DNA of 64,000 nt from Granulicella tundricola MP5ACTX9 (GTDB lineage Bacteria; Acidobacteriota; Terriglobia; Terriglobales; Acidobacteriaceae): contig NC_015057.1 in the NCBI RefSeq assembly GCF_000178975.2, forward strand, positions 310,001 to 374,000, read 5' to 3'. Position numbers and translations under genes: made by a program. Shown here piece after piece: positions 8,671 through 27,089 of this stretch; within the stretch, counting starts at the first letter, position 1, and every line of letters starts with the position of its first letter. The notes under the pieces were generated by a model, which was not told the DNA's origin, did not search any database, and saw only the letters and a program-made list of their open reading frames with translations.

Positions 8671-8673
8671 CTT

Positions 8674-11600
8674 TTACTGATACACATCTGCCTCGATGAC
8701 GTTCAGGATGGCTTTGCTGTCGTGCGTCACAGGCGCTACGCCTGCGCCGTCGTACTTGCCGTTGACCTCTATGGTGGCGGAGGCGGGCTTGTCGTCGATG
8801 GGCGCGCCCGTCAGCGCGATGCGAAGGTGGGTGCCTTGCGCGGGCTTCAGCGGAATCGTCGTATAGCCGAGGTTCATGGGCGTGATGCCTTCATAGATCG
8901 GGGTGCCGTCAAGCGTGATGCGGATCGGGTAGCGGCGCGTGCGGAAGGCGTTCAGCTTCAGGTCGATTTGGGTGGGCGTAGAGGCTTGCTTGAGTGTCAG
9001 GTCGATCCAGGCCGTGGAGAGCTGACCGTCGTTCGACCAGGAGGTCGTTTCGTTGTCGTCGTAAGCGCGTGCGGCTGTGTCAGGGTTCGAGCCTGCAGTT
9101 GCGCTGACTATGGGGATGGACGTGCGTGTGATGTGGACGGACGAGCCTGTGGGCGTTGGGCCACGCAGCAGGTTGGACGGTAGCGCGGCTGCGGGATCGT
9201 AGGTCGCGAGACCGTTGTCGACCTTGACCGGCACGGCCAGCAGCGTGATCATCGCAGAGCGCAGGCCGGGTGAGGTTGCAGTCACTGTGATCTTGCCCGC
9301 TGTGGGTTGCGTGCGAATGAGGACGCGGTTGATGCCGTCTTCGACAGGAAGAGTCCTGGAGAGGATGTAGTTGGAGAAGCTGGGAATGTCCGTGCCGGCC
9401 GCTGGTTGCGCAATGCCGCCGCGCCATTCCGCCGGGCCGTCGATGGCGAACGAGATCATGTTGTTCGCGGTGGGGCAGCGGCGGCCCAGCGAGTCCATCA
9501 CCTCTACATCGACTAGCGCCAGGTCGGAGCCGTCGGCATGAAGACCGCCGGGGCCAGCATGTGCGAAGAGGCGGATGGAGGCTGGTTCGCCCGCCGTCTG
9601 AAGATGCGTGTCCGTGATGCGCTTGCCTGCGGCGTCATAGCCGATGGCCTCCAGCTTGCCTGTGGCAAAAGCAATGTTGGGGAAGGCGAAGAGGAAGTCG
9701 CTGGACTGGCCTGCGGGCACGCCAGCCTCATGGGGCATGTCAGGCAGAGCAGCCGTTCCAAGGGGCAGCGCGCGTGCTGGATTTGGATCCGTGTCGGATG
9801 CCGTGACCGAGCCGACCGTCTTACCGTTTAACGTAAGCTGCACACGTGCGACCTTGGCTGCGACGACGTACACCGTCTTTGTTGTGCCGGCCGGATAGCT
9901 CCAGTGGCCGAGGATGTGCATCGCCGGACGCTCGGGATCGACCCATCCGTTCCACATCACCTGGCCTGCGTAGAAGCCGTCCTTGGGCAGGCGCATTGCG
10001 TCCACGGCGCCGGAGCGGCGGTAGTTATTGTCTCCACGATGATGCGTGTTGGAGTCCGCGAAGATGATCTTGACGCCGCCCGCGCTGACGCGGTCACCCG
10101 TGCCCGGACGCGCGCGGTAGTAGTCATCCCAGCGCAGCACGTCTTCAATGGCGTGCGAGTCCTGATTGCGGTTGTACAGCGGCGAGTCTTTATGGAAGGG
10201 CGCGGACTCGTTATCCCAGAAGGCGCGTGCGGCCTCATCGCGGCTATACTCATGCGCCCAGAGCGGCTTGCTCGCGGACTTGTCGACGTAGAGCATCTCG
10301 CCGCCGTACTCGGCCACATGGCTCGCGAGCATCTCGCGTGAGCCGATGGCGCGGCCTCCGTGCGGATCGTACCGATCGCGGACGGCCTTCATCTCCGCCA
10401 TGTGCTCATCCGAGATGCTCTTGTTGCCGGACTCATAGAAGAGGATGGAGGGGTTGTTGCGGTTGTAGATGATGGAGTCGCGCATGAGCTCCACGCGCTG
10501 CTCCCACTGGCGGCCCTTGGAATCTCCCTCAGAATCGCCTGCGGGCATGGACTGGATGAGACCCACGCGGTCGGCTGAGTCCGTATCCTGGCGCGATGGT
10601 GTGACGTGCATCCAGCGCACGAGGTTCGCGTTGCCTTCAACCATCAGGCGGTTGGAGAAATCGCTGAGCCAGGGTGGCAGATCGATGCCGATTGCGGGCC
10701 ACTCGTTGGTGGTGCGCTGGGCGTAGCCGTGGATCTGCATGACGCGGCCGTTCAGGGTGAGCTCGCCGTGATCGAAGGCGGTCTGGCGGAAACCGGTGGT
10801 CGTGGTCACGGCATCGATGGGCTTGCCGTCGATCGAGATCGTCGTCGTGACCTTATAGAGATAGCCGTAGCCCCAGCTCCAAAGGTGGAGATGCGCTACC
10901 GGCTGTGAAGCGGAGACGACTTGCATCTCACCCGGCGCAAGTGTCACATCCGAGCCTTTCATCGTTCCGACGAGGAGATGATTCGCGTCCTCGATGCGTG
11001 CCGTGTAGCCGATGGTCTGCGGTGTCATGCTGTCGTTGCGAACCTGTGTCTCTGCGGTGATTTTGGCGGAGTTGGTTGCGAGATCGAAGTCGCCGGCCCA
11101 GATATACGTTCCCGTGGTGCCTAGTGATGAGAACAGTGGAAGCGTCTGATGGACAGGCCCGGTTACATGCAGCCAGACATTCTTGCTGATGCCGCCGTAG
11201 TTCGCGTAGAAGTTGGTGTCGTTCCAGTGAAAGGCCGTGCCGGTGGCGATCTCCTTGTATTTGAAGTCGTTGTCCGTGCGTACGGCAAGGATGTTGTCCT
11301 CGGCTGCAGGCTTCAGGGCGTCGGTGATATCGAAGCCGAAGGCGGAGACGCCGTCTTCATGCCGCCCCAGCAGCTTGCCGTTGAGGTACACGACGCCGGC
11401 CATGCGGATGCCTTCAAACTCAAGGTGGACACGCTGACCCGGCGCACCGGCGGGCACGCGAAAGTGCTTGCGATACCAGGCAATGCCCGTGGGAAGCTTG
11501 TCGATGCTGACCTTGAATGCGGAGTCCTCATTCCATGCATAGGGCAGCGTGACGGGCTTCCATGCCGAGTCGTCAAAGCCGGGCGCCTGGGCGTTGGCGG

Positions 11601-12836: not shown

Positions 12837-13015
12837 TCGTATCCCTCGTCTTTTGTTTCCCATGAAGCATACCGCCGCGCGTGGGCGCTTGTCGCGTCTT
12901 CTATTTCAAATAAAGAACTGTTTCTTTTCGGCCTTGGCTGAGGCTTGGTAAGGCTGTCCCCGCCGCACAGGGTATGATGGCAGACGCTGAACCCGCTTTC
13001 GTTCAGCCGGTAACC

Positions 13016-14887
13016 ATGGCCATGTCATCCGCTCGTTCGCTCCGACTTTCGCTTGCACTTCTCGCCGTATGCTCGCCGCTGCTCGCGCAGACTCCGTTGG
13101 AAAGCCAGAAGCAATCCGCGCAGGAGGGTGCGCAGGCTCCGGGGCATGGAGGCTCCGGGACCGCCGGCATCTTTCCGCCCGTGCTTGATTCCGCCAAGCG
13201 TCCTATCACCGCGGGCGGCACGGTCAAGACTGGCCCCATTGTGTTTGCGGACATCGCCCAGAAGGCCGGGCTGACAAGCTGGCACCACACCATGGGCTCG
13301 CCGGAGAAGCGCTACATCATTGACACGCTTGGTTCCGGCGTCGCGCTCTTGGACTACGACAATGATGGCTGGCTGGATATCTACCTCGTCAACGGCAGCA
13401 CCGCGCCAGCGCTCGCAGGCAAACAGCCCTCACCGCACGCTGCGCTCTTCCACAACAACCATGACGGCACCTTCACGGACGTGACCGCGAAGGCCGGCGT
13501 GGCGAACGATCGCTGGGGCATCGGCGTGGCTGTCGGGGACTACGACAACGATGGCTGGCCGGACCTGTACGTCACCAACTTTGGCGGTAACCGGCTCTTC
13601 CACAACAATCATGACGGCACCTTCACGGATGTGGCCGTCAAGGCGGGCGTGGCGCTCGGCAACTGGAGCACCGGCGCAACCTGGGGCGACTACGACGGCG
13701 ACGGCAAGCTTGATCTGTTCGTCCCCGGCTACGTCCACTATGACCTCAAGAATCAGTCCGGTGACGCCACCGTTCCGCTGACCTTCTGCCAGTATCGCGG
13801 CGTCAAGACCATGTGCGGTCCGCGCGGTCTCCCTGGCGAGTCCGATCATCTCTTCCACAATAACGGCGATGGCACCTTCACCGACGTGAGCGAGAAGGCC
13901 GGCGTCAGCGACAAATCCGGCTACTACGGGCTGGCCTCCGTCTTCATCGACGTCAATAACGACGGCCGCGCGGACCTGCTCGTGGCCAATGACTCCACCC
14001 CGAATTATCTCTATCTCAACCAGGGCAACGGCACGTTTGAGGACGTCTCCTACGCCTCCGGCTACGCGCTCAACAAGGATGGCCGCGAGACTGCGTCGAT
14101 GGGCATTGCGGTGGCGGACTACCGCAACAACGGCCTCATCGATATCTACAACACCACCTTCTCAGACGACTATAAGCCGCTGTACCGCAACGACGGCGAC
14201 GCCAACTTCACCGACATCAGCTACGAGACCCACATCTCTGAGTTGACCATCCCGTTCCTCGGCTGGGGTACTGCGTTCCTCGACTACGACAACGACGGCT
14301 GGCGCGATCTGCTGGAAGTCAACGGCCACGTCTACCGCAACGCCGATACCAACAACTGGGGCACCACCTGGGCGCAGCGTCCGCTGCTGTTCCACAACGT
14401 CGCAGGCAAAAGCTTTGACACGGTTCCGGCGGTCGAGGGCACCGGCCTGGCTGCCGCCATGACCTCGCGCGGCCTGGCTGTGGGAGACCTCTTCAACGAT
14501 GGCCGTACGGATGCGGTCATTAATAACCTGGACGCGGCTCCGGCGTTGTTGCGCAACGTGGACAACGATAAGCACCACTGGGTCGCCTTCCGCCTTACTG
14601 GTGGCCCGAAGAGCCCACGCGACGCCATCGGCGCAACGCTTTACCTCACTGCCAACGGCATGAGGCAGCGTGCGGACATCTTCTCCGGCGGCAGCTTCGC
14701 TTCCACCTCCGATATGCGCCCGCACTTCGGCCTGGGCAGCGCGACTACGGTTGAGAAGCTTGAGGTTCATTGGCCCAGCGGACTCAGGGAGCAGTTTGCC
14801 GTTCCCACCATCGACCAATTTCAATCGATCACGGAAGGGAAGGGAACGGAGATTGCGAAGCCGACCACCGTGCCGGACTCGAAGTAG
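13016..14887 (+). CDS. CRTAC1-family protein (FG-GAP/VCBS propeller with ASPIC/UnbV C-terminus), copy A
   Basis: About 623 residues, exported: MAMSSARSLRLSLALLAV, cleavage near LLAQ. The mature protein is a repeat propeller with many Asp-rich calcium-type loops (DYDNDGWLDIYLVNG, DYDNDGWPDLYVTNFG, DYDGDGKLDLFVPGY), each followed by LFHNNxDGTFTDV. It ends in an ASPIC/UnbV segment (LEVHWPSGLREQFAV). A C-x8-C-GP-R-GL insert begins at Cys258 and is shared with the two other CRTAC1 proteins here. Function is unknown; the name comes from a human cartilage protein, and ligand binding or adhesion is inferred. The start is uncertain (12974, 13016 or 13022); I chose the one giving the best signal peptide. 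It is followed by a pentaheme cytochrome. Confidence 0.88.
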   Translation: MAMSSARSLRLSLALLAVCSPLLAQTPLESQKQSAQEGAQAPGHGGSGTAGIFPPVLDSAKRPITAGGTVKTGPIVFADIAQKAGLTSWHHTMGSPEKRYIIDTLGSGVALLDYDNDGWLDIYLVNGSTAPALAGKQPSPHAALFHNNHDGTFTDVTAKAGVANDRWGIGVAVGDYDNDGWPDLYVTNFGGNRLFHNNHDGTFTDVAVKAGVALGNWSTGATWGDYDGDGKLDLFVPGYVHYDLKNQSGDATVPLTFCQYRGVKTMCGPRGLPGESDHLFHNNGDGTFTDVSEKAGVSDKSGYYGLASVFIDVNNDGRADLLVANDSTPNYLYLNQGNGTFEDVSYASGYALNKDGRETASMGIAVADYRNNGLIDIYNTTFSDDYKPLYRNDGDANFTDISYETHISELTIPFLGWGTAFLDYDNDGWRDLLEVNGHVYRNADTNNWGTTWAQRPLLFHNVAGKSFDTVPAVEGTGLAAAMTSRGLAVGDLFNDGRTDAVINNLDAAPALLRNVDNDKHHWVAFRLTGGPKSPRDAIGATLYLTANGMRQRADIFSGGSFASTSDMRPHFGLGSATTVEKLEVHWPSGLREQFAVPTIDQFQSITEGKGTEIAKPTTVPDSK

Positions 14888-14890
14888 CCG

Positions 14891-14910
14891 CCTCCACCTT
14901 TTGGTGGAGG
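14891..14910. other. 8-bp perfect stem-loop after CRTAC1 copy A
   Basis: CCTCCACC (14891-14898) and GGTGGAGG (14903-14910) pair around a TTTT loop, 3 bases after the stop. No T-run follows, so an mRNA-processing or partial-terminator role between this gene and the cytochrome gene is more likely than full termination. Confidence 0.6.
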
Positions 14911-14975
14911 ACAACCGTCCCCATGATCCCATAGAATTCGCCAGTTAGCTAAAGCTGCTGTCCGTACCGATCGTC

Positions 14976-17318
14976 GTGAGCCAAGCCATCCGCAATCCGT
15001 CTCCAACTCGTTCCCGGCTCCTCGGTCTCTTCGCCGTACTGACGGTCGCCATCCTCTCTCTGTCTATGCCGCACGGAGTGCGCGCAGGCTCAGAGAACGA
15101 TGCTGCCGCAGACGCGCGCAAGGCCTACAGCGCCAAGGAAGCCAAGGCCTACACCTACAAGTTCGATTCGACGAAACCGTTTCTCCCTTCGAACATGCAG
15201 ACGGATACGGGCGAGTTCATCGACCCCAAATCCTTCCCCACGGCGCAGTACTGCCAGCACTGTCACCAGGCCGCGCATGCTCAGTGGCGTCAGTCCGCGC
15301 ACGCCAACTCCAACCGCGTCCCGTACTACCTGCGCAACGTGAACCTGCTCATCGCGGAGAAGGGAATCAGTTTCTCTCGCCACTGCGAGGGTTGCCACGA
15401 TCCCGTCGCGATGGCTGCAGGAGCGATCACGGATGGCGCGCCGCGTAAGCGTCCGTACGACCAGGACGGCGTTACCTGCATGGTCTGCCACTCCATCAAG
15501 AGCGTGGACACGCGCGGCACTGGCAGCTATGTTCTCGCGGAGCCCGCGGTGCTGGTCGACGAGACCGGCCAGCCCATCCACCGGCCTGTGTCCGATGGCG
15601 AGATACTGTCCCATCTGGACCGCCACTCCGCCGCAGTCATGAAGCCGCTCTACAAGACCCCCGAGTTCTGCTCCACCTGCCATAAGGCCGCGCTGCCGCA
15701 TCAGCTCAACGACTACAAATGGCAGCGCGCCATCTCGCTCTATGACGAGTGGCAGAACTCCTCCTTCGCCAAAGAATCGCCGCTGCCGTTCTACAAGAAG
15801 GACGTGGTCTCCACCTGCCAGACGTGCCACATGCAGCGTGAGGATCTTGGTTCAGCGTCAGACTCCGGCGCGAAGAAGAACCAGCTTGTCTCGCATCGCT
15901 GGCTCGGCGCGAACACCGTCATTCCGCAGATCTATCACTATCCCGAGCAGGGCGAGAAGGTTACTGCCTTCCTGCAGAATGCAGTGTTCAACGTAGACCT
16001 CTTCGCGCTCGAGCCTGAGGCTACCGCATCCGGTCAGCCTGCGCTGATCGCACCGCTCGGCATGTCAGCTTATACGCTGACGCCCGGCCAGCGAGTCACC
16101 GCCTCCGTTGTCATCCAGAACAAGGGCAACGCCCACTCGCATGTGCCGGAGCAGCGTGACATGTACGAGTCCTGGGTTGCCTTCACGGTGAAGGACGCCG
16201 CCGGCAAGACCATTGCGGAGAGCGGGTTCATCCAGCCTGGCGGTGAGCTTGATGAGTCTGCACATAGCTTCACCAATCGCCTGATCAACAAGCAGGGAGG
16301 CATCAACAGCCTGCACCAGGTTTGGGATAATCGAGTCGTCGCGTACAACAACACCATTCAGTCTGGCCGCTCGCAGTTGATCCGTTACGCCTTCACGATG
16401 CCGAAGAGTGGCCCCGTTACGGTCACTGCAGCCGTTCGTTATCGCCGCTTCGACCAGCACTTTATTGACTTCGGCATGAGCATGCCCGCAGGGCAGCACT
16501 ATCAGCAGCCCATCGTGGATATGGTGTCTACTACCCGCACCTTTGCAGTCGGCGTGAATTCCGCCATCAAGCCTCTGCCCAACGAGAATCCGGAGTGGAT
16601 GCGCTGGAACAACTACGGCATCGGCCTACTGGACGCTCAGCAGTACGCCGGCAGCGTCGCGGCCTTTGAGCACGTGGCGAAGCTCCGCCCGGACTACCCC
16701 GATGCGCCCACCAACATCGGCCTCACCTACATCCAGTGGGAGAAGTACGACGAGGCCATGCCTTATATTGAAAAGTCTCTCGCGCTTGGCAAAGATAACG
16801 CCCGGGCCCTGTACTATCGGGCCCTTGTCGAGCGCAATCAGGGTCAGGTTGACGAAGCAATCGTCGATCTGCAGAAGGTGGCAGCCCAGTTTCCGCGTTC
16901 CAGAGATGCACACCGGGAGCTGGGCTTCTCCTACTACCAACAGCATAAGTACCCGCTTGCCCGCGCCGAGTATGAGACCGTCCAGTCGATCGATCCCGAT
17001 GATCTGGCCGCGCACTATAACCTTGCAATCCTCTATCGCCGCCTGGGTCTCAAGGACAAGGCCACCGAACAGGCCGCCTACTTTGCGGACCAGAAGGACG
17101 ATCCCACCGCGAGCGTCTACGCGCTGGAGTACCTGCGCAAACATCATGAGATCGCGCAGGAGTCCGTCCCATGGCACGTCCACGATCTCGACCACAAGGG
17201 TAAGGACGAGCCGCTCCCGGCCACCGCTGCGTCGGCTTCCGCTACCATGGCTGTCCTTCACCGCCTGGAAGCGCCGGAGCTTTTGCCTGACCCCACCGCC
17301 CAGGGCGGGCTCCACTAA
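14976..17318 (+). CDS. Exported pentaheme cytochrome c with C-terminal TPR domain
   Basis: A 780-residue fusion. A GTG start gives a Sec signal ending about HGVRAG. The N-terminal third has five CxxCH heme sites (CQHCH, CEGCH, CMVCH, CSTCH, CQTCH). The first carries the cytochrome c554-type spacing (YCQHCHQ, then W, S and H). A beta-rich middle follows, then about four TPR units near residues 530-720 (YNNxGIGLLDAQQYAGSVAA-like, PDAPTNIGLTYIQWEKYDEA, RALYYRALVERNQGQVDEA, DLAAHYNLAILYRRLGLKDK). It probably accepts or relays electrons outside the cytoplasm while the TPRs dock partners. Its stop is 9 bases before the monoheme cytochrome gene, so they are an operon. The redox partner is unknown. 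Confidence 0.9.
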   Translation: MSQAIRNPSPTRSRLLGLFAVLTVAILSLSMPHGVRAGSENDAAADARKAYSAKEAKAYTYKFDSTKPFLPSNMQTDTGEFIDPKSFPTAQYCQHCHQAAHAQWRQSAHANSNRVPYYLRNVNLLIAEKGISFSRHCEGCHDPVAMAAGAITDGAPRKRPYDQDGVTCMVCHSIKSVDTRGTGSYVLAEPAVLVDETGQPIHRPVSDGEILSHLDRHSAAVMKPLYKTPEFCSTCHKAALPHQLNDYKWQRAISLYDEWQNSSFAKESPLPFYKKDVVSTCQTCHMQREDLGSASDSGAKKNQLVSHRWLGANTVIPQIYHYPEQGEKVTAFLQNAVFNVDLFALEPEATASGQPALIAPLGMSAYTLTPGQRVTASVVIQNKGNAHSHVPEQRDMYESWVAFTVKDAAGKTIAESGFIQPGGELDESAHSFTNRLINKQGGINSLHQVWDNRVVAYNNTIQSGRSQLIRYAFTMPKSGPVTVTAAVRYRRFDQHFIDFGMSMPAGQHYQQPIVDMVSTTRTFAVGVNSAIKPLPNENPEWMRWNNYGIGLLDAQQYAGSVAAFEHVAKLRPDYPDAPTNIGLTYIQWEKYDEAMPYIEKSLALGKDNARALYYRALVERNQGQVDEAIVDLQKVAAQFPRSRDAHRELGFSYYQQHKYPLARAEYETVQSIDPDDLAAHYNLAILYRRLGLKDKATEQAAYFADQKDDPTASVYALEYLRKHHEIAQESVPWHVHDLDHKGKDEPLPATAASASATMAVLHRLEAPELLPDPTAQGGLH

Positions 17319-17327
17319 ACTGAACTC

Positions 17328-17669
17328 GTGCTGACTCCTTTCAAATCGATCCTGAACGTCTGTCTCGCGCTGACCTCAGTCTTTGCGGCACGCCTCCTGG
17401 TCTCTTCCGCCACAGTCCACGCCGACTCGACCTCCGTCCGCCGCGGGGCTGAATTATTTGCAGAGAACGGCTGCGCGCACTGCCATGGCACCAACGGCAT
17501 CGGCGGAGGCAAAGGGCCGGACCTGAATAACGTCGCTCACCATATGAAACCAAAAGAGATAGCGACTCAGATCCATGATGGAGGCAAAAATATGCCCCCT
17601 TACGGCGACGCTCTCAGCGATCAACAGGTGGCAGATCTGATTGATTATCTTCACTCAAAACGCCGCTAA
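17328..17669 (+). CDS. Small exported monoheme cytochrome c
   Basis: A 113-residue class I cytochrome c. A GTG start follows the pentaheme gene by 9 bases. The N-terminus is a hydrophobic signal or anchor (SILNVCLALTSVFAARLLV). The single heme motif is CAHCH in FAENGCAHCHGTNGIGG, followed by GPDLNNV. A Met in KNMPPYGDALSDQQVADL is the expected distal ligand, and the last helix VADLIDYLHSKRR completes the fold. It probably exchanges electrons with the pentaheme protein encoded just upstream. Confidence 0.92.
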   Translation: MLTPFKSILNVCLALTSVFAARLLVSSATVHADSTSVRRGAELFAENGCAHCHGTNGIGGGKGPDLNNVAHHMKPKEIATQIHDGGKNMPPYGDALSDQQVADLIDYLHSKRR

Positions 17670-17849
17670 ATGAGCCTCTACTGCGATCTTTGAGACAATC
17701 CTCGCCCTTCAAACTGCATCCAAACTCCTCAGCAGCAACGGTCTTGTCCGCACTCTTTCGCCTTTTGAAAAAGTTGCGGACGACATACCGATCAGCACCG
17801 TGTTTGACCTGAACATGAGCGGCAACCAGCCGCTGAGGAAGAGACGACC

Positions 17850-18140
17850 ATGCTCAAGAAACTGGCAGTCGCAACACTATTCGCCTCCCTTTTGCCCCTC
17901 GCATCGCAGGCCCAGATTGCGATCCGTATTGGGCCACCGGCGCCCGTCGTCGAGCACTACGGGCCACCCCCGCATCCCGGCTATGTATGGCAGGGTGGAT
18001 ATCATCGCTGGGATGGTAACCGGTATGCATGGACCCCCGGCCACTGGGGCCGTCCGCCACGTCCCGGCGCGGTGTGGGTGCCTGACGCCTACGATCATCG
18101 CGGCGATGGATACCACTATCACGCGGGTTACTGGCGCTAA
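17850..18140 (+). CDS. Small exported WXXGXW-repeat protein
   Basis: A 96-residue protein with a Sec signal (MLKKLAVATLFASLLPLASQ, cleavage near QAQ). The mature part is rich in Tyr, Trp, Pro and His, with repeated motifs of the YXWXXGXW type (GYVWQGGYHRWDGNRYAW, TPGHWGRPP, YHYHAGYWR). The family is common in Acidobacteriota and Proteobacteria and has no assigned function; the aromatic/His repeats suggest a surface or metal-binding role (inference). It is separated from the cytochrome gene by 180 bases, so probably has its own promoter. GAGGAAG-like purines lie upstream of the ATG. Confidence 0.85.
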   Translation: MLKKLAVATLFASLLPLASQAQIAIRIGPPAPVVEHYGPPPHPGYVWQGGYHRWDGNRYAWTPGHWGRPPRPGAVWVPDAYDHRGDGYHYHAGYWR

Positions 18141-18160
18141 ACCTTAAATCGATCTCAACC

Positions 18161-18190
18161 GGCGTACCAGTCCTATTGGGCTGGTACGCC
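18161..18190. terminator. Bidirectional terminator between convergent genes
   Basis: GGCGTACCAG (18161-18170) and CTGGTACGCC (18181-18190) pair perfectly around a 10-base loop. The hairpin lies between the stops of the + strand small protein (18140) and the - strand CRTAC1 gene (18196). T-rich sequence follows on the + side (GATCTTTATT) and an A-rich stretch (CCTTAAATC) precedes it. Confidence 0.75.
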
Positions 18191-18195
18191 GATCT

Positions 18196-19893
18196 TTATT
18201 GCACCAGCTTGCCTTTGCCTTCAACGAACTCGACCATCCGATCCACTCCCGCAACCGTAAACACTTCGGATTCGCCATTAGGCCAGCGGACCGTTACATC
18301 CGCCACATGCATCTCTGCCCCCAGCCCAAAGTGCAGTCGGAGATCGTTGGAGCTGTTATAGCTCGAGCCGCTCCGCACCTCATCCACCCAACTCCGCTTC
18401 GTACCCCGCACCACCACACGCCCGCCGATCCCATCCCGGTTCGACTTAGTGCCGGTGAGCTTGATCCCAAGCCAATGATTTGTGTTCTTCGCCTCATTCA
18501 CCAGCAGCATCGGACGGTCGCTCAGATTGTTTACGATAGCCTCAAGCCGCCCATCGTTCCACAGGTCAGCGATCGCTAGCCCACGCCCCGCCATCGGCTC
18601 CGTCATGCCTGGCCCCGCACCCTTCGACACATCCTTGAACTTGCCATTGCCTTGATTCCAGTAAAGAAAACGAGGCTCCCGATAAGCCGCGCCCAGCTTG
18701 GCTGAATCAACCTCCGGGTACACATGCCCGTTCACCACGATCAGGTCCGGATACCCATCGTTATCGACGTCCGCGAACATCGCTCCCCAGCCCAGCGCAT
18801 CGGAGTTGATCCCTAAGCCCGCAGCGAAGGTCTCATCCGTATACGTGCCGTCGCCGTGTGACTTGTAGAGGGTGGCCGTGTCGTCGGAGAAGTTCGTCTT
18901 GAAGAGGTCGAGGTGCCCGTCGCCGTCATAGTCCGCAGCCGTCGCGCCCATGCCCGCCTGCTCGCGCCCATCCTCATTGAATGCCACACCCACATCCGCT
19001 GCGACATCCGTGAACGTCCCATCATGATTGTTCCGGTAAAGGATCGAAGGTGTCGAATCACACGCCATGTAGATGTCCGGCCAGCCGTCTTCGTTATAGT
19101 CCAGCGTGGTGACGGAGAAGCAGTAGTGCCCAGCCGTCTTCTCGATCCCTGCCGCCTTACTGACGTCTGTGAACTTTCCCCCGCCGTCATTATGGAAGAG
19201 GATATTCGGCGCACTCGGCAACCCACGCGGCCCACACATCACGGGTGACCCCTTCCACATGCAACCCGCGTCCGCACCCGGCGCAGGAGTCTTGGCCAGG
19301 TCGAAGTGAACGTAGTTCGCGATCACCAGATCCAGCTTGCCGTCGCGGTCATAGTCGACGAACGCACACCCCGTTCCCCACTCCTTGCCGCTCCCCGCCA
19401 CGCCCGCAGCCTCAGCAACCTCCTTGAAGCTTCCGTTGCCGAGATTATGAAACAGCCGGCCCTTGCCATAGCCCGTCACATAGATGTCGTCGAACCCATC
19501 GTTGTCATAGTCCCCAACGCAAGCGCCCTGCCCCCAGCCGGTCGAGACCATGCCTGCCTTCGCAGTCACATCGGTAAACGTGCCGTCATGGTTGTTGTGT
19601 AGGAGATGATTGCTCGCCGCCGTCTTGCCCGCGGAGCCCAGGTCAGTCCCGTTCACCAGGAAGATATCCGGCCAGCCATCGCGGTCATAGTCGATGATTG
19701 CCACGCCCGACCCCGTAGCCTCAACGATGTACTTCTTGTGTTCCTCGCTGCCGTTGACGTTGCGAACCGTGATGCCGGCCTTAGCCGCAACATCGACAAA
19801 CCACGCCGGCGTTGGGTGCTCCGCGCTGGCCGGATACACCTGCTGAGCCTGCACACCCACAGCCAGCAGCAAAAATAAGAGAAGCATCTTCAC
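18196..19893 (-). CDS. CRTAC1-family protein, copy B
   Basis: A 565-residue exported protein: MKMLLLFLLLAVGVQAQ is a short Sec signal. The propeller repeats have Asp-rich loops (DYDRDGWPDIFLVNGTD, DYDNDGFDDIYVTGYG, DYNEDGWPDIYMACDST) each followed by HNxxDGTFTDV, and the chain ends with the ASPIC/UnbV segment (DVTVRWPNGESEVF). The C-x8-C-GP-R-GL insert starts at Cys211. Its ATG overlaps the stop of copy C by 4 bases, so the two are translationally coupled in the operon TPR, copy C, copy B. Function is unknown. Two unlike paralogs made together suggest a heteromer or successive binding partners (inference). Confidence 0.9.
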   Translation of the reverse strand: MKMLLLFLLLAVGVQAQQVYPASAEHPTPAWFVDVAAKAGITVRNVNGSEEHKKYIVEATGSGVAIIDYDRDGWPDIFLVNGTDLGSAGKTAASNHLLHNNHDGTFTDVTAKAGMVSTGWGQGACVGDYDNDGFDDIYVTGYGKGRLFHNLGNGSFKEVAEAAGVAGSGKEWGTGCAFVDYDRDGKLDLVIANYVHFDLAKTPAPGADAGCMWKGSPVMCGPRGLPSAPNILFHNDGGGKFTDVSKAAGIEKTAGHYCFSVTTLDYNEDGWPDIYMACDSTPSILYRNNHDGTFTDVAADVGVAFNEDGREQAGMGATAADYDGDGHLDLFKTNFSDDTATLYKSHGDGTYTDETFAAGLGINSDALGWGAMFADVDNDGYPDLIVVNGHVYPEVDSAKLGAAYREPRFLYWNQGNGKFKDVSKGAGPGMTEPMAGRGLAIADLWNDGRLEAIVNNLSDRPMLLVNEAKNTNHWLGIKLTGTKSNRDGIGGRVVVRGTKRSWVDEVRSGSSYNSSNDLRLHFGLGAEMHVADVTVRWPNGESEVFTVAGVDRMVEFVEGKGKLVQ

Positions 19894-21758
19894 TTCTTCA
19901 CGCCGTCCATCGCCATCGTCTTCAACACCTTGCCACCCTCTTCAATGACGTATAGCTTATTCGCCGCAAGCCCCGTCAACGTATCCTTCGCGCCTGACGG
20001 CCAAGCCAACTCTACATCCGCCGTCTTCGCCCCATCCAACCCAAAGTGAATCCGCAGATCGTTCTGCGAGTAGTAGCTCCCCCCACTCCGCACCTCATCG
20101 ATCTGCCTGAGCGGCTGCTTCCCCATGCCACTTTTATCCTGCGCCGCAGTAGCCGCAATCACGGTGATGCGCGTGCCAATCCCCGCGCGGTTGCTCTTCT
20201 TCCCCACCACCCGGATCTTGATCCAGTTCCGAGCTACGGTGGAATCACACCGCAGCAACTGGGGCAGGGAATTGACGCAGTTCACCACCACATCCATGTC
20301 CCCATCGTTATCAAAATCCCCGAACGCACACCCCCGCGCGGCCACGGCATCGGTCATGCCATTTCCAGCCAGGTTCGTTACTTCCTCAAACTGTCCATTG
20401 CGCAGATTCCGATAGACATACTTGTGCTCTGCATACGGCGCGTCCAAATGTGACCCATCGACCTCCGGGTAGACATGGCCATTGGAGATGAAGATATCCA
20501 GCCAGCCATCGTTATCCAGATCCACGAACCCCACGCCCCATCCGAGATAACGCGTATTCACCCCAAGCCCGGACAGATACGTGTGATCCTCAAACGTCCC
20601 ATCGCCCAGGTTCTGGTACAGCGAATCCGTATCTCCTGCAAAGTTCGTCTTCACGATATCCAGCAGCCCATCGCGGTTGAAATCACCAACCGCCACACCC
20701 ATGCCCGCCTGCGGCTTGCCGTCAGGCGAGTACGCAATCCCAGCCTCGATCGCCGTATCCTTGAACGTGCCATCCTTCTGGTTCTGGTAGTACGTCGCCG
20801 CGGTCGAGTCGTTCGCGACATAGATATCCGGCCAGCCATCGTTGTCCAGATCGGCGACGGTGACGCTCAGTCCATACGTCCCGATCGTCCCCCACATCCC
20901 GGCCTTCTCGCTGACGTCGGTGAAGGTCCCATCCCCATTGTTCCTGTAGAGAATGTTCTTCCCGCCTTCGAGCCCCGGCGGTCCGCAAGCCACCTGCATC
21001 CCCTTGTACGCGCAGCCCGCTGCCTCCGGCAGAGGAGCCGTCTTGATATCGAAGTCGATATAGTTCGCCACAAACAGATCGAGCTTGCCGTCCTTGTCGT
21101 AGTCCACAAACGCGCAGCCCGAGTTCCATCTCATCTTGCTCTGCGTCAGCCCCGCCTTCGTCGTCACATCGGTAAATGTGCCGTCGCCGTGGCTCTTGTA
21201 GAGGATGTTCTGCCCGTAGTACGTGACGAATAGATCGTTCAGCCCATCGTTGTCATAGTCGCCGACGCAGCAGCCCTGCCCCCACCCGGATCGGGTCATC
21301 CCGCTCTTAGCCGTGATGTCCGTGAACGTGCCGTCGCGGTTGTTCTTGAACAGATGACTCACCGGCTCCTGACCCTTGGCGAAGCCTTCCAGCCGAGTCC
21401 CATTCACCAGAAACAGATCCAGCCAGTCGTCATGGTCGAAGTCATAGAACGCGACGCCGCAGCCGGTCGTCTCCAGCAGATACCTGTTCTTGTGCTCGCC
21501 CCCATAGATCGTCTTCGTGGTCAGCCCGCTCTGCTTCGCGACATCCACAAAGCTGTACCCCAGCGGAGTCCCCGTCACCGGGGAAGCCACCCCCTTAGGC
21601 GCCGGCCGAGGCTTCGTGTCATACGTCGGCCTCGCCCCAACCTGCTGCGCGACCTCTTGCGCTCCCGCAGGCCACGCGAGCTTCAGCACATCCTCAAGCG
21701 TCAGCACTACAGCCGTGCGCGAAAGCGACTTGATCAATCCACGTCTCGTCCAGATCAC
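19890..21758 (-). CDS. CRTAC1-family protein with Tat-like signal, copy C
   Basis: About 622 residues. I start at the GTG at 21758 because AAGGAG lies 9 bases upstream (21768-21773); a GTG at 21782 is possible. The N-terminus has paired arginines (TRRGLIKSLSR) before a hydrophobic run, resembling a Tat signal, unlike the Sec signals of copies A and B. The repeats carry calcium-type loops (DFDHDDWLDLFLVNG, DYDNDGLNDLFVTYYG, DLDNDGWPDIYVANDS), with the CX8C-GP-P-GL insert from Cys249 and an ASPIC/UnbV end (VELAWPSGAKDTL). It lies 30 bases after the TPR gene and overlaps copy B. Tat export would imply folding before export, a possible sign of a cofactor. Confidence 0.88.
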   Translation of the reverse strand: MIWTRRGLIKSLSRTAVVLTLEDVLKLAWPAGAQEVAQQVGARPTYDTKPRPAPKGVASPVTGTPLGYSFVDVAKQSGLTTKTIYGGEHKNRYLLETTGCGVAFYDFDHDDWLDLFLVNGTRLEGFAKGQEPVSHLFKNNRDGTFTDITAKSGMTRSGWGQGCCVGDYDNDGLNDLFVTYYGQNILYKSHGDGTFTDVTTKAGLTQSKMRWNSGCAFVDYDKDGKLDLFVANYIDFDIKTAPLPEAAGCAYKGMQVACGPPGLEGGKNILYRNNGDGTFTDVSEKAGMWGTIGTYGLSVTVADLDNDGWPDIYVANDSTAATYYQNQKDGTFKDTAIEAGIAYSPDGKPQAGMGVAVGDFNRDGLLDIVKTNFAGDTDSLYQNLGDGTFEDHTYLSGLGVNTRYLGWGVGFVDLDNDGWLDIFISNGHVYPEVDGSHLDAPYAEHKYVYRNLRNGQFEEVTNLAGNGMTDAVAARGCAFGDFDNDGDMDVVVNCVNSLPQLLRCDSTVARNWIKIRVVGKKSNRAGIGTRITVIAATAAQDKSGMGKQPLRQIDEVRSGGSYYSQNDLRIHFGLDGAKTADVELAWPSGAKDTLTGLAANKLYVIEEGGKVLKTMAMDGVKK

Positions 21759-21788
21759 CGCTCCACACTCCTTCGCGTCCACCCAATC

Positions 21789-22886
21789 TTAGTGCAGGTT
21801 CTCGAGCTTCGGTTCGCTCGCCGTTTGCAGCTTTTGTGCGGTGGACGTCTCGCGGCTTGCATCCTCCGTCCGACCCATCGTCCGGTAAGCCTGCCCCAGC
21901 AGCGAGTGCGTCATATAGTTCGCCGGGTCCATCTTCACCGCACGCTCCAGGTATGTCGTCGCACCCAGTGCATCACCCTGCTTCAGCATCGTCTTACCCA
22001 GCAGGATGTATGGCCCAGTGGAGTTCGGTTCCAGCAATACCGCCTCCTGCAGACTCGCTTGCGCGTCCGTATACCGGGCCGCACGGCCATACGCATCCCC
22101 CAGCCGGTCATAGACGCTCGGCTCCAGCGGGTTTGAGATCTTCTCCTTCTCAAACTGCGCGATTGCCTCCTCCAGATGATTCCCCGCCAACGCAATCTCC
22201 CCCAGCAACGCATGAGCGAGCGGCAGTCCCGGCTGCAACGCCAGCGCCTTCTCCGCGAACCCCTGTGCCACTGGCAGATACTCCCGCCTCAGCAGCATCC
22301 GAGCCGCCAGCAGATACGCCCCCGCCCCATCCGGCTCCATCCCGAACTGCGCTGCAAACGCATGCCGCGCATCGTCGTACTTGCGCGTGTCGATATAGCA
22401 AAGCGCCAGGACATAGTTCGGATCGGCCTTTCGGTCGCCTCCGTTCGCCTTGCCCTTCGACCCCTCGAGCAACGGAATCGCGTCCGCTGGCCGTCCCAGC
22501 CGGAACAACGTTAGCCCCCGCATCTGCGCGGACTCCACATCGCCCTTGTCCTCCACCAGCGCATCCGCAAACGCGGTGTCGGCCTCTCGCAACTTCCCTT
22601 GTGCGAACAAAGCGAGCCCTTCCATCCGGCTGAGCCCCGCCATCCGGTAGCCGGCGGCCCCCGGACCCGCCGTTCGCAGGGAGACAATCCGCTGCAAAGC
22701 CTCATCCGCATGCCCCGTATCGATCTGCTTCCGAAGGCCCCGCAGCGTCTCCGCCTCAGCCGTCGTTGCAGAGGCTCCCTGCGCCGCCGCAGCTGGCCGG
22801 ACCTGTAGGCCCTTTGAATCCGTGCTCTGTGCAAGCACCCCGAAACCGCCTCTGATACAGAGCAGCCCCACCAACACCCACTTCAT
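21789..22886 (-). CDS. Exported TPR protein, first gene of the CRTAC1 B/C operon
   Basis: About 365 residues. The N-terminus is a signal (MKWVLVGLLCIRGGFGVLAQ). The rest is tandem TPR-like helical repeats, the best being PSVYDRLGDAYGRAARYTDA, STGPYILLGKTMLKQGDA and NYMTHSLLGQAYRTMGRT, so it is probably a periplasmic scaffold. The start is uncertain (22886 ATG, 22901 GTG or 22916); I chose the one at the signal peptide. Two CRTAC1 genes follow at 30 bases and then with an overlap. The cytochrome on the other side of the island also carries TPRs, so TPR plus CRTAC1 is a recurring pairing here. A strong terminator at 22955-22988 separates it from the receptor gene upstream. Confidence 0.85.
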   Translation of the reverse strand: MKWVLVGLLCIRGGFGVLAQSTDSKGLQVRPAAAAQGASATTAEAETLRGLRKQIDTGHADEALQRIVSLRTAGPGAAGYRMAGLSRMEGLALFAQGKLREADTAFADALVEDKGDVESAQMRGLTLFRLGRPADAIPLLEGSKGKANGGDRKADPNYVLALCYIDTRKYDDARHAFAAQFGMEPDGAGAYLLAARMLLRREYLPVAQGFAEKALALQPGLPLAHALLGEIALAGNHLEEAIAQFEKEKISNPLEPSVYDRLGDAYGRAARYTDAQASLQEAVLLEPNSTGPYILLGKTMLKQGDALGATTYLERAVKMDPANYMTHSLLGQAYRTMGRTEDASRETSTAQKLQTASEPKLENLH

Positions 22887-22954
22887 CTTCTCGATCGTCA
22901 CGTAGCCCAAACTCAAAGCCTCAATCTTCCTTCGCTTCAGAAATCACGGTACCA

Positions 22955-22988
22955 AATAAAAAGCGGGAGAGCAGAATCGCTCTCCCGC
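22955..22988 (-). terminator. Rho-independent terminator of the frameshifted receptor gene
   Basis: Read on the minus strand, GCGGGAGAGC and GCTCTCCCGC (22979-22988 and 22963-22972) form a perfect 10-bp stem with a 6-base loop, followed by TTTTTATT. It starts about 20 bases after the receptor stop at 23009. Confidence 0.92.
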
Positions 22989-23008: not shown

Positions 23009-26000
23009 TTAGAACTGAAGGCGGCCCGAGAACTGTAGCTGCCTTGGGTTGGAGGAGGAGTTCGGGAACGGTCCGGAGCCGATTGCGCCGCCGTTCTCGA
23101 TGTTGCCATTGGGCGTTCCGAAGTTGATGTGGTTGAACGCGTTGTAGCCGTCCGCCCGCAGTTGGAAGACCGTACCTTCGTGGATAGTGAAGCTTTTCTG
23201 TACGGAAAGGTCCGTGTTGAAGAAGTGCGGTCCGAAGGCAGTATTGCGGCCAACATTACCGAACGTATTCAAACCCGGAGCGGTGAAGGTGCCTTGTCCA
23301 GGAGAAGAGAAGACGTTGTCGGCTGCGTTATGCGCGAACGCCTGGTAGAACGTGAGGTTCTGACCGGGAAGCCCGCTCTGCTGCGAGTGGAAGTTGTTGA
23401 TGTCTCCGCTCACATAGCACGGTGCGCCACTGACGTTGGAGCCCGTGCAGTTGTTGTAGCTGAGGGTGTATGGCAAACCACTGGAATAATTGATGACCGG
23501 GCTGATCTCCCATCCACCCACAATCTGGTTCACGATTCCGTTCGAGTGATTCAGGAACTGCTTGTGTGCACCGAAGGGAAGCTGGAGGAGCCCGTAGACG
23601 ATGACCTGCTGCTGACGCAGAGCAGCCGTCACGTCCACGAACCACCGCACGATCCCATGTGGAATAGCCGGTCGCTTCACTGATCGCTTTCTGCCAGGCG
23701 TAGCTTACGTTGAGGGAGTAGCCATGGGACAAGTTCTTGGTGATCGTAGCCTGCATGGCGTTGTAGTGCGTGTCCATGTCATCGCCAAGGTATTTGATCC
23801 CATTCGTCCAGCCGCAACCGCCGTTGGCCGCATTGATGCCGCCAGCCGCTGCGTAGTTGACATCGGAGCAAGCAGGGAGCTTCACACCGTAGTACCGCTG
23901 AAGATAGTTGACGTTAGATGTTCCATTGTTTGCGCTGATACCAGTCGCAACCGAAGGATCGTAGTGAAGTGCCTGACCGTTGATGCTGTACTGCGCCGGC
24001 AGGAAATCACCTGGTTCGTTCGGATTCGTCTGCTGACCGGACTGGTCGCCCAGCGTATGGGTTCCCTTGTTGGCGACGTAAGCCAGGGTCGTAGACCAGC
24101 TTGATCCAATGGCCTGTTGTACGGCCATGTTCCAGGCATCCAGGGTCGGAAGCCGTTCAGTGGTCGGACGGGCGAATGAGCTGACTGCGTTGCCCGGATT
24201 GGGCAACTGACCGCTCGCCGGGGAGGTGATGAACGTTGGGTTGCTCGGACCTTGCGCCAAGGTAAACGCGTAGTTGGTGTTAGTCGCGCTATCGCCGCCG
24301 GGAGCCACAAGTGACTGCCCTGCGAGAACCGGAAGGTTCTGTGTCGCCGCATGTCCGAAGACAGAGCCGAAGACGCCGATATCGAAGCTACGACCGTATC
24401 CCGCGCGAATCACGGTACCCGGCTTCGCCTCCCATGCCACGCCAAGGCGCGGGTTGAAGGCATACTTGGGTGCTGCAATGTTCATGTCGCTTGCGACACT
24501 GCCCACACCCGCAACCTGGAGGTAGCCGGTCGCAAGGTTGAGCAGGGAGCCGTTGGAAGGCGCGTTGATGGTTTCAGGCGCGTAGTACTCGTACCGCAGC
24601 CCAAGGTTCAATGTGAGGTTGGACTTCGCACGCCACGTATCCTGCGCGTAGCCGAACGCACGCTTCTGGAACTCCTTGGCGTTTGTCGAAGTGCTCACAA
24701 ACCGGCCGAACGTCGGAACCTCGCCCAGGGCGAAGGTTGCAAAGCTCAGGCCGTTGCTGCCGGATCCATCGCCGGTCGGGCCGGTGCCGATATTGAGGGC
24801 GCCGGTACGATCCGTGTCAGACGGGACACGCAGGTTGCGTGCATAGCGCAGGTCGACGCCGAACTTGACCGCGTGGTTTCCGAGCGTCTTGGTCCAGTTG
24901 TTTGCCAGTTGGTACTGATCCTCATGCTCCGTCAGCGGGCAGTTGCAATGCGTGAAGCCAAGCCCCTGACCATAGACGGAAGAGTTGTTGCTGTTGCCAT
25001 AGGATCCCGGGTCGGCGAGGAAGAAGCCAGGCGCACCGCTTGTGATGATATCGCCCTTGTTCAGGTTTGGAATGCCAAGCAGCGTCGCGTACTGAACGCC
25101 TTCGTCATATTTGTGCGTCGTGATGTTGTAGCGGAAGTATCCAAGACGAACGTCGAAGACCAGCTTGGAGTTGACCGCTACGTCTACACCCGCCGCTGCG
25201 CTGGTGTTCTTACCCTGTGACGAGCCGGAATAGCCATTGAGCCCGAAGCCCTTGCCGCCGGCCTGCCCGAAGATCGGCGAACCGCTCAGAAGGTCGGTGA
25301 AGCGGCTGAAGCGTCCGAAAGCGTGAATGCTCTGGCTGAGCGAGTAGTCCACACGAACGTCGTACTGATCGTCGTTCAGACTGCCCTGTCCGCTGGCTGC
25401 ATAGTTGTTGACCAGGCCCCCGAGGCTTCCTGCTGTGTTCGGCTTGTAAACCGAAAGCTGCTTCAGGAAGGCCAGGAACTGCGGCGAAAGGCGACCGTTC
25501 GGGATGATGCTGTTCGGGAAGGGGCAACCGTTCCCAGTGGAGTTGTCGAAGATATACGCGACGCCCGTTCCGCAGGCAGCGGTATTCTTCGTGTTCGCTT
25601 TGCCGAACTGCTTCGTATACTCGCTGAAGTCGCAGCCCGTGCCGCTCAGGCAGCTCGTGTAGACCAGATTCGTTGGAACGGTCTCCAGATTGGCCAGACC
25701 GACCTTCTGCCGAACGCCCTGATAGTCCAGGAAGAAGAACAGGCGATCCTTGAGGATGGGACCACCCAACGATCCGCCGAACTGATTCTTCAACCCACCC
25801 GGGAACGGGTTGGTCGCTGTGAGGCTGGACCGTGGCTGAGTAAAGGGATCTGTAGCCAAGTTCGCGTTGCTCTCGCGATAGTCAAAAGCCGAACCGTGGA
25901 ACTTGTTTGAACCGGACTTCGTCTGCACCGTTACGACCGACGAAACAGCTTTACCGAACTCGGCGTCGAAGTTCTGCGTCGTGATCTTTGCTTCAGAGAG

Positions 26001-26666
26001 CGAATCGACGTTCGGGTTGATGACGATGATTCCAAGCAGGGGATCCTGGTTATCCGTTCCATCCAACTGGTAGGAAACGCCGGCAAACGCCTGTCCATCG
26101 ACTTCAATCTGCTTGGACCCCTGGGGGTTTTCGCTGGCTGCGTGACCCCAGCCAAGCTGCTGCGCACCCGGAAGCAGAAGCTGAAGATTCGTGAAGTTAC
26201 GATCCGGGATTGGAAGCTCCACAATCTCCTGAGCGCTGAAGGTCGTCGCGACGTCCGCACGATCCGCCTTCAACTGGGGAACCTGGTCTGCGTTGACCTC
26301 AATCGTTTGGTCTGCAGCGCCGATCTCAAGCGCCGCGGTGACCTTCGTCGCCGTATCCGCGAACAAGGTGATCTGTGTCTGCTGGAAGGTTTTGAAGCCG
26401 GTCGCCGCGACCTTGACGGTATATACGTCGGGGATAAGGTGATCTGCCGTAAACTCGCCCGAATCGTTGCTCTTCAGGGTCACGCTTGTGCCCTTGGCCA
26501 AGTCCGTTACGGTAACCGTTGCATTCGGAACTGCGGCACCCGTTGAGTCGGTCACGTTTCCGTTGATCGATCCGAAGATTGCCTGCCCAAATGCCGGAGC
26601 CACCAGCAGCAAACCCGTTGCTGCCAGGGAAGCGCCCCTCCGGAATTGCTTGAATAATGTTGTCAT
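23009..26666 (-). pseudogene. Oar-like TonB-dependent receptor with a +1 frameshift near 23626
   Basis: Start ATG at 26666 with GGAGG 7 bases upstream. The signal peptide ends PAFGQ; then come the carboxypeptidase-regulatory domain (IFGSINGNVTDSTGAAVPNA), plug-like region (VELPIPDRNFTNLQLLLPGA) and barrel. The frame runs well to TWDRAVVRGRD and then turns into Arg/Cys-rich nonsense. Barrel sequence resumes in another frame (ALRQQQVIVYGLLQLPFG) and ends LQFSGRLQF. Removing one G at 23626-23627 restores RGRD-AALRQQQ and a 1218-residue receptor. As read, the product lacks its last 200 residues, including the BAM signal, so would not insert properly. A sequencing or assembly error is a real alternative because the rest is undamaged. 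Confidence 0.85.
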
Positions 26667-27089
26667 TGCCACTCCTCCAAAAATTGCTGCCATGTCGCGG
26701 TCAGAATCGTTCGTCCTCAAACCGTCCTCGAAGAACGTCGTTCAGTCTCCAAGCCGGCGTGCATGGCTTGGGTTCCTATCGTTTCAACGGGGGAAAAAGG
26801 GCCTGTCTGTTTGCGTTGAGAACACTACCGGCAGGAGGACGGCGATGTCAACCTTTTTGTGGAGAGGAACTTCTTCAAGAAACATGCAAGCTGTCATGAC
26901 AGCTTTCCATCCTCCCGAAATCCATAGAAAGTAAAGATAAAGTGGCCGGACCACACGGATTTTCATATCATTCCACAGCTCAGGGCAGGTTCTCGCCCAG
27001 CCCTTTCGCGGGAAACCTGTTATGACAAAGCCGAGCCACCCGTCTCCACCAAATGGTATAGTCCTCTCCGTAGCTTTCGGAGGACTTTC
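26667..27089. promoter_or_regulatory. Divergent promoter region, receptor / GH13, with perfect 18-bp palindrome
   Basis: This 423-base gap holds promoters for the receptor (minus) and the GH13 gene (plus). At 26888-26905 it contains AAGCTGTCATGACAGCTT, identical to its reverse complement over all 18 bases, with a TGTCATGACA core typical of dimeric LacI/GntR-type sites. No gene on either strand is supported here; the open frame crossing it on the minus strand is antisense to GH13. Confidence 0.6.

Follow-up and report, generated by a model that had tools for sequence, protein, structure and literature searches.

The DNA analysed here, referred to as the window, is a stretch of 64,000 nucleotides from Granulicella tundricola MP5ACTX9, a member of the Acidobacteriaceae with a genome of 5.5 Mb (G000 in our numbering). 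It harbours an island in which genes for CRTAC1-type propeller proteins, tetratricopeptide repeat (TPR) proteins and c-type cytochromes are arranged in two facing operons. The + operon encodes a CRTAC1 protein, a pentaheme cytochrome fused to TPRs and a monoheme cytochrome, and its core, the pair of the first two, is a conserved module that recurs in one bacterial phylum and two other lineages. The island comprises the following features (window positions):

12974-14887, + strand: CRTAC1-a (P0001), FG-GAP propeller plus UnbV_ASPIC domain by Pfam, a member of the cytochrome-partner clade I
14976-17318, + strand: P0002, pentaheme cytochrome with five CxxCH motifs, fused to C-terminal TPRs (Pfam)
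17328-17669, + strand: P0003, monoheme class-I cytochrome c, third gene of the + operon (PF13442, E 1.2e-16)
17850-18140, + strand: small WXXGXW-repeat protein (PF12779, 23.3 bits against a cut-off of 18)
18160-18191, + strand: terminator common to both facing operons, 14-bp stem (terminator scan)
18196-19893, - strand: CRTAC1-c (P0005) of the facing operon (Pfam, tree)
19890-21782, - strand: CRTAC1-b (P0006) of the facing operon, grouping with partner clade II (Pfam, tree)
21789-22916, - strand: P0007, a TPR protein whose gene opens the facing operon (Pfam)

The three CRTAC1 genes, the TPR gene, the pentaheme-TPR fusion and the monoheme cytochrome gene had already been listed by a sequence-only reading of this DNA, and all of them are present according to Pfam and the CxxCH motifs; the WXXGXW protein within the island is an addition to that list. 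The proposed arrangement, two facing operons around a shared terminator, is likewise borne out by the 14-bp stem at 18160-18191, the longest among 13 terminator-like sites in the scanned region (5.9 expected). Spacing is operon-like on both strands: CRTAC1-a and P0002 are separated by 88 nt and P0002 and P0003 by 9 nt, while the minus-strand TPR and CRTAC1 genes show spacings of 6 nt and a 4-nt overlap. The N-termini of the island proteins, judged by eye and not by a prediction tool, suggest export, and that of P0006 appears twin-arginine-like on the same kind of inspection. Between CRTAC1-a and the cytochrome gene, positions 14891-14910 form a perfect inverted repeat of 8 bp with the loop TTTT and no T-run, which could be an attenuator or an mRNA processing site.

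The five CxxCH motifs of P0002 are located at residues 93-97, 137-141, 168-172, 232-236 and 281-285, and the protein consists of a heme domain (residues ~62-330), a beta sandwich (~338-524) and C-terminal TPRs (~540-730). The Cys and His columns of all five motifs are invariant in 54 aligned sequences. An AlphaFold2 model built on these sequences (mean pLDDT 88.1, pTM 0.86) displays all three parts, the TPRs forming a solenoid. Among PDB entries, Foldseek ranks 5ze8 first, a structure of the Thermochromatium tepidum penta-heme cytochrome c552 (E 1.7e-12, TMt 0.66, TMq 0.35, root-mean-square deviation (rmsd) 6.6, 15% identity; 489 alignment columns, target chain of 385 residues). A search with a profile built from the heme part also recovered 5ze8 (E 1.4e-10), together with MccSep (9e-5) and cytochrome c554 (0.0075). 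Scored against the curated ExtKL model NF040886, the heme part stays far below the cut-off (23.3 bits, cut-off 250). In a VIA search with the P0002 model, all 50 rows are TPR or TPR-like chains, and the 5ze8 match is neither backed nor opposed by them. Like P0002, cytochrome c552 combines five c-hemes with a beta-sandwich domain. According to the available part of PMC11976967, ExtKL, Gsu2801 and the sPHC and lPHC proteins of cable bacteria form one pentaheme (PHC) family with immunoglobulin (Ig)-like domains and similarity to cytochrome c552; they share the five c-hemes with P0002, the sandwich being Ig-like in the PHC family. On the basis of the modelled fold, P0002 fits a cytochrome of the PHC kind to which TPRs have been added. 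Unlike c552 and the PHC family, it possesses the TPR solenoid and is paired with CRTAC1, and in the available part of PMC11976967 neither TPR nor tetratricopeptide, CRTAC1 or FG-GAP is mentioned. The best named relatives of P0002 are from Acidobacteriaceae, e.g. Granulicella and Edaphobacter.

Beyond the heme motifs, histidines 109, 217, 307 and 387 of P0002 are invariant in the 54 sequences and H430 is nearly so. This tally, which is a sequence count and not an assignment of axial ligands, sets five CxxCH motifs against four other invariant histidines and H430, and is consistent with an enzyme in which one five-coordinate heme is catalytic and the CRTAC1 protein is an obligatory subunit shaping access, as propellers are in hydrazine-synthase-like complexes. 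Similarly, the available part of PMC11976967 counts the related proteins sPHC and lPHC among cytochromes with a potential catalytic role, on account of pentacoordinated hemes in models, a point that weighs against the electron-transfer role favoured below. However, a methionine, a lysine or H430 could serve as the missing ligand, and no substrate or catalytic motif was identified; we consider such an enzyme, the main rival to electron transfer, unlikely.

P0001, P0005 and P0006 each consist of FG-GAP repeats (FG-GAP_3, E 4e-48 to 4e-56) and a UnbV_ASPIC domain (E ~2e-17), with P0005 sharing 44% and P0006 40% identity with P0001. The top match of the AlphaFold2 model of P0001 (pLDDT 87.3, pTM 0.87) is murine CRTAC1 (9etn), both by Foldseek (E 6.7e-31, TMt 0.73) and by VIA (Z 41.3, rmsd 3.5, 469 residues aligned). 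The two proteins have in common the propeller and a UnbV_ASPIC-type fold, whereas murine CRTAC1 is an animal protein of ~20% identity, for which to our knowledge no heme partner is known. After CRTAC1, Foldseek returned lectins for N-acetylglucosamine (GlcNAc) and VIA returned LGI1 or WD40-type propellers.

The conservation of the pair was assessed in loci fetched by cytochrome homology alone. These 135 loci (numbered with the prefix L) comprise every place that the closer group occupies in other genomes (37), 20 places picked by hand from the more distant group and 78 named loci that ranked best out of 568; after removal of six without an intact cytochrome in the open reading frame (ORF) calls and of five duplicates, 124 remained. 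Among the six is L086, in which a homology search places CRTAC1 ~370 bp from the cytochrome. A CRTAC1 gene lies within 700 bp of the cytochrome gene in 85 of the 124 loci, in 82 of them on the same strand, and the gap between the two has a median of 13 nt (at most 10 nt in 40 and at most 100 nt in 71 of the 85), values that depend on start choice (the first start in the open frame), with overlaps possibly overstated. The ORF calls are greedy longest-ORF picks, which misread some GC-rich loci (e.g. L195, L203, L207, L211); L193-L212, the most distant set, were judged by eye and stand outside the counts, and since a split of the cytochromes by length (760/960) mislabels at least L091, L124 and L155, combined counts are given. 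Clustering at 90% identity yields 120 cytochrome clusters from the 124 loci, 83 of them with an adjacent CRTAC1, and among the 105 loci flanked by over 3 kb in each direction CRTAC1 is adjacent in 75 and within 5 kb in another seven. By contrast, CRTAC1 is found in none of 18 control windows (18 kb each, hand-picked, same family). Of 120 genomes from the family, 80 contain a match to P0002 (E<=1e-30) and 94 a match to the UnbV_ASPIC family PF07593; the latter is present in 79 of the 80 cytochrome-positive and in 15 of the 40 cytochrome-negative genomes (Fisher 2e-14, phylogeny not corrected), and the sole positive genome without it (G109) has a cytochrome match of only 26% identity. In the phylum, the cytochrome family occurs in 89 of 297 genomes (E<=1e-25). 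The same adjacency exists in metagenome-assembled genomes labelled Rhodothermus and Neomarinimicrobiota (L176, L194; L186, L193), whose cytochromes, as in more distant members, have CxxxxCH as first heme motif plus four CxxCH.

The CRTAC1 proteins themselves reflect this association. In a FastTree phylogeny of 138 proteins, 76 of the 85 cytochrome-adjacent CRTAC1s are confined to three clades. Clade I (48 tips, 41 of them cytochrome-adjacent, support 1.0) includes P0001; clade II (13 tips, all adjacent, support 1.0) is nested in a clade of 18 that also includes P0006; and clade III (22 tips, support 0.976) contains the CRTAC1s of the longer cytochrome variant. P0005 belongs to a clade of four with L109 and two other non-adjacent CRTAC1s. 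In addition, an ORF of 1,141-1,292 amino acids matching the CRTAC1 model comes after the pair in 14 of 20 loci whose neighbourhoods were compared, and two of these long ORFs tested by Pfam are TPR-FG-GAP-UnbV fusions, single polypeptides that contain the folds of both partners.

Genes for CRTAC1, TPR and cytochrome proteins all abound, with PF07593 matches averaging eight per genome over the 120 genomes, and a chance adjacency of common families might be argued from such abundance. The adjacency in 85 of 124 loci, the partner clades, the short gaps and the CRTAC1-free controls lead us to reject this explanation for the + operon and to regard it as barely credible; the conserved co-occurrence whose absence the earlier reading would have taken as a sign of chance exists for the + genes. 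Our confidence that the CRTAC1-cytochrome pair is a functional conserved module is high.

Several observations nevertheless weigh against a strict bond between the two genes. No CRTAC1 is present within 5 kb in 23 of the 105 well-flanked loci, which include close relatives (61-64% identity), and the host genome itself contains a second intact P0002 copy (L019:8188-10512, 46% identity), which lacks any FG-GAP match in its vicinity, and a third copy broken into several frames (L021, ~7534-9786; G000 C1:151141-153066). At least seven genomes of the same genus are without the cytochrome family, eight possessing it, and related genomes are not independent. Clade I also includes six CRTAC1s without an adjoining cytochrome, one of them from the host genome (L010). 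P0001-like CRTAC1s (>=60% identity) occur in all nine genomes with an unlinked cytochrome copy (a linked copy being present as well in one of these, G044) and in nine of the 15 genomes that are cytochrome-negative and CRTAC1-positive, so that an exclusive tie of clade I to the cytochrome was rejected. A further observation concerns close relatives of P0002 that lie beside nuo-like (complex I) genes and have no adjacent CRTAC1 (L058, L059, L062, L120, L123, L124, L164); the nuo identity comes from a family search in L058 and was read by eye from synteny in the others.

The third gene of the module varies. A gene of less than 240 amino acids with one CxxCH is found within 1.5 kb in 25 of the 124 loci, in 24 downstream on the same strand and in one upstream. 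In 35 loci, always on the same strand and after the pair, there is instead a family of small, apparently exported proteins (CPW...AIGNEA...GRVRD), which were detected with a search model built from five seeds (CPW-N near the start, GRVRD later) and are represented by the following feature:

L145:4369-4836: CPW small exported protein, also present at L138, L077 and 32 other loci

In 34 of the 35 loci the CPW gene is no more than 700 bp away from the cytochrome gene or the CRTAC1 gene, and none of the 35 has a monoheme gene at up to 1.5 kb (overlap 0 of 124, Fisher 1e-4, lineage effects not removed). Pfam gave no match for four CPW proteins tested and NCBIfam nothing over cut-off for two. A search of the 120 genomes with one CPW member (E<=1e-8) produced 12 matches in 11 genomes, and by their coordinates, compared for three of them with CRTAC1 positions as well, all 12 are at cytochrome-CRTAC1 loci. 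The family is a specific marker for the module; weaker members, e.g. at L087, were missed at this threshold. At the same threshold the host genome has no match, its own third gene being the monoheme cytochrome P0003.

The facing operon is accompanied by two features that are neighbours of the core:

22963-22988, - strand: hairpin resembling a terminator, with an 11-bp stem and a T-rich tail, that separates the TonB-type gene from the TPR operon
23009-26720, - strand: TonB/Oar-type receptor (CarboxypepD_reg, OMP_b-brl_4), with its frame broken towards the end

The frameshifted receptor gene, upstream of the facing operon, is either a pseudogene or the product of an assembly error. Around the island lie genes for glycoside hydrolases (GH88, GH2-like, GH13, GH10), a trehalase, a sugar transporter of the major facilitator superfamily, a GntR/LacI-type regulator and further TonB/Oar proteins, and these surroundings would fit a glycan-uptake locus, in which CRTAC1 and TPR proteins would bind sugars at the TonB/Oar receptor and the cytochrome would be a co-regulated passenger. 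Other signs agree with such a locus: L009 and L011 of the host genome hold CRTAC1, TPR, TonB-type and putative glycosidase genes (by eye), TonB-type genes lie within 4 kb in nine of 20 CRTAC1 loci selected without regard to the cytochrome, against 3 of 18 controls (p 0.09), and the GlcNAc lectins rank next after CRTAC1 in the Foldseek search of P0001, where VIA has LGI1/WD40-type proteins instead. At cytochrome loci, however, TonB-type genes are not enriched (19 of 102 against 3 of 18 controls), a result by which we also rejected TonB as a regular member of the cytochrome module, and CRTAC1 is adjacent in those 85 of 124 loci. As an account of the whole island glycan uptake is distinctly improbable; for the facing operon by itself it could well be correct. 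The lack of TonB enrichment at cytochrome loci and the tendency of TonB towards other CRTAC1 genes set the facing operon apart from the redox unit, and the TPR-CRTAC1-CRTAC1 operon appears to be part of a distinct TonB/TPR/CRTAC1 unit of the uptake type, belonging to the carbohydrate region. No member of the SusD family was found among the region proteins scanned, which represent part of the window; the receptors match OMP_b-brl_4/CarboxypepD_reg.

TPR, CRTAC1 and TonB-type genes are all found beside the cytochrome in only five of the 124 loci (L054, L056, L071, L072, L142), which does not bear out the earlier suggestion that all six genes form one complex. In L054 this set faces the cytochrome as in the window, the upstream CRTAC1 being absent there, and facing CRTAC1s are present in L109. 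Close relatives of P0007 (276-376 bits) likewise occur at only five of the 124 loci (L054, L070, L135, L138, L141). The whole island is only locally conserved, and its two operons may be juxtaposed by chance. Elsewhere in the host genome, G000 C5:2126000-2160000 (L009, L010) is a further CRTAC1/TPR/TonB region with putative glycosidase genes (by eye); the clade-I CRTAC1 at L010 has no cytochrome with it.

CRTAC1 genes also occur beside other multiheme proteins. Among 39 matches to a heptaheme query, whose heme numbers were not individually counted, at least 14 have a CRTAC1 gene within 2.6 kb and two more within 5 kb, while 23 do not. The gene order TonB, TPR, CRTAC1, heptaheme is found in L071, L254, L257 and L270, the last three with an extra TPR gene. 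These sets resemble the window module in that a multiheme-TPR gene adjoins CRTAC1, and differ in their seven CxxCH motifs, a different cytochrome and the TonB-type and TPR genes alongside. A third class is related to hydrazine synthase (HZS). According to the available part of PMC12758564, a CRTAC1 gene lies, in other taxa, between hydrazine-synthase-like alpha and beta-gamma genes, the beta-gamma homologues of that paper's clade I carrying cytochrome c554 domains. In L221 (6116-14597), from a relative of the host, an HZS_alpha gene (PF18582, E 6e-18), a CRTAC1 gene and a propeller-diheme gene stand in a row; the propeller gene has a weak CCP_MauG match, and the cluster also has a periplasmic binding protein. 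L216 likewise combines CRTAC1 with a propeller-diheme gene. As far as the available part of that paper goes, these clusters and the window share a CRTAC1 gene amid extracytoplasmic c-heme proteins, and the clusters differ in having HZS alpha and heme proteins of the propeller and diheme type and no PHC-TPR. The agreement of L221 and L216 with what is available of PMC12758564 speaks for the enzyme outlined above; PF18582 has no match in the host genome, which, with the control queries silent there too, counts only weakly against it. The composition of the island, of which the earlier reading knew no described system, was not found in the open-licence literature, nor was a function for such a module. 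The claim needs qualification for CRTAC1 within hydrazine-synthase-like clusters, as given in the available part of PMC12758564.

From these classes we tentatively suggest, at somewhat less than even confidence, that bacterial CRTAC1/UnbV propellers are general partners of extracytoplasmic multiheme cytochromes. At least three unrelated classes (PHC-TPR, heptaheme-TPR and hydrazine-synthase-like) would be involved, the PHC-TPR and heptaheme-TPR classes being coupled through TPRs, and the CPW subunit, so far seen only at these operons, would be a new addition of the PHC branch. At CRTAC1 loci not chosen by cytochrome, multiheme genes were found near three of 20 against none of 18 (p 0.23), and PHC-TPR at none of the 20.

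For the + operon, an electron-transfer complex with a TPR-docked CRTAC1 propeller is in our view the best explanation, one that we hold with slightly better than even confidence. The operon would encode an extracytoplasmic (periplasmic or surface) electron-transfer module, in which the PHC-type pentaheme chain with its beta sandwich, as in cytochrome c552, would carry electrons, and the C-terminal TPR solenoid of P0002 would dock the propeller-UnbV protein. A small soluble protein, in this operon P0003, might exchange electrons with the pentaheme chain, and these would be passed on to the respiratory chain, CRTAC1 serving as a docking or substrate-facing subunit. The facing TPR-CRTAC1-CRTAC1 operon would belong to the surrounding carbohydrate-uptake region. 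The redox or binding complex suggested earlier is plausible as a conserved, probably exported CRTAC1/TPR/c-heme unit, and its physical assembly is a matter of inference.

Electrons could alternatively cross the outer membrane to metals or humics through a conduit of the porin-cytochrome type. In Geobacter the gene for ExtKL, a relative within the PHC family, is accompanied by one for a porin, and no porin gene lies beside the PHCs of cable bacteria, both according to the available part of PMC11976967. At the loci studied here, no porin recurs among the neighbour clusters, in which TonB-type proteins are the sole recurrent barrel and which were covered without a profile search aimed at porins, and a lipobox-like motif is present in only one of 56 family members; such a conduit is very unlikely.

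In the open-licence literature searched, bacterial CRTAC1 proteins have no assigned function, despite the presence of UnbV_ASPIC in 94 of the 120 genomes. A cytochrome partner would give these proteins their first testable role, and a soil phylum would be seen to possess an electron-transfer unit that is so far undescribed.

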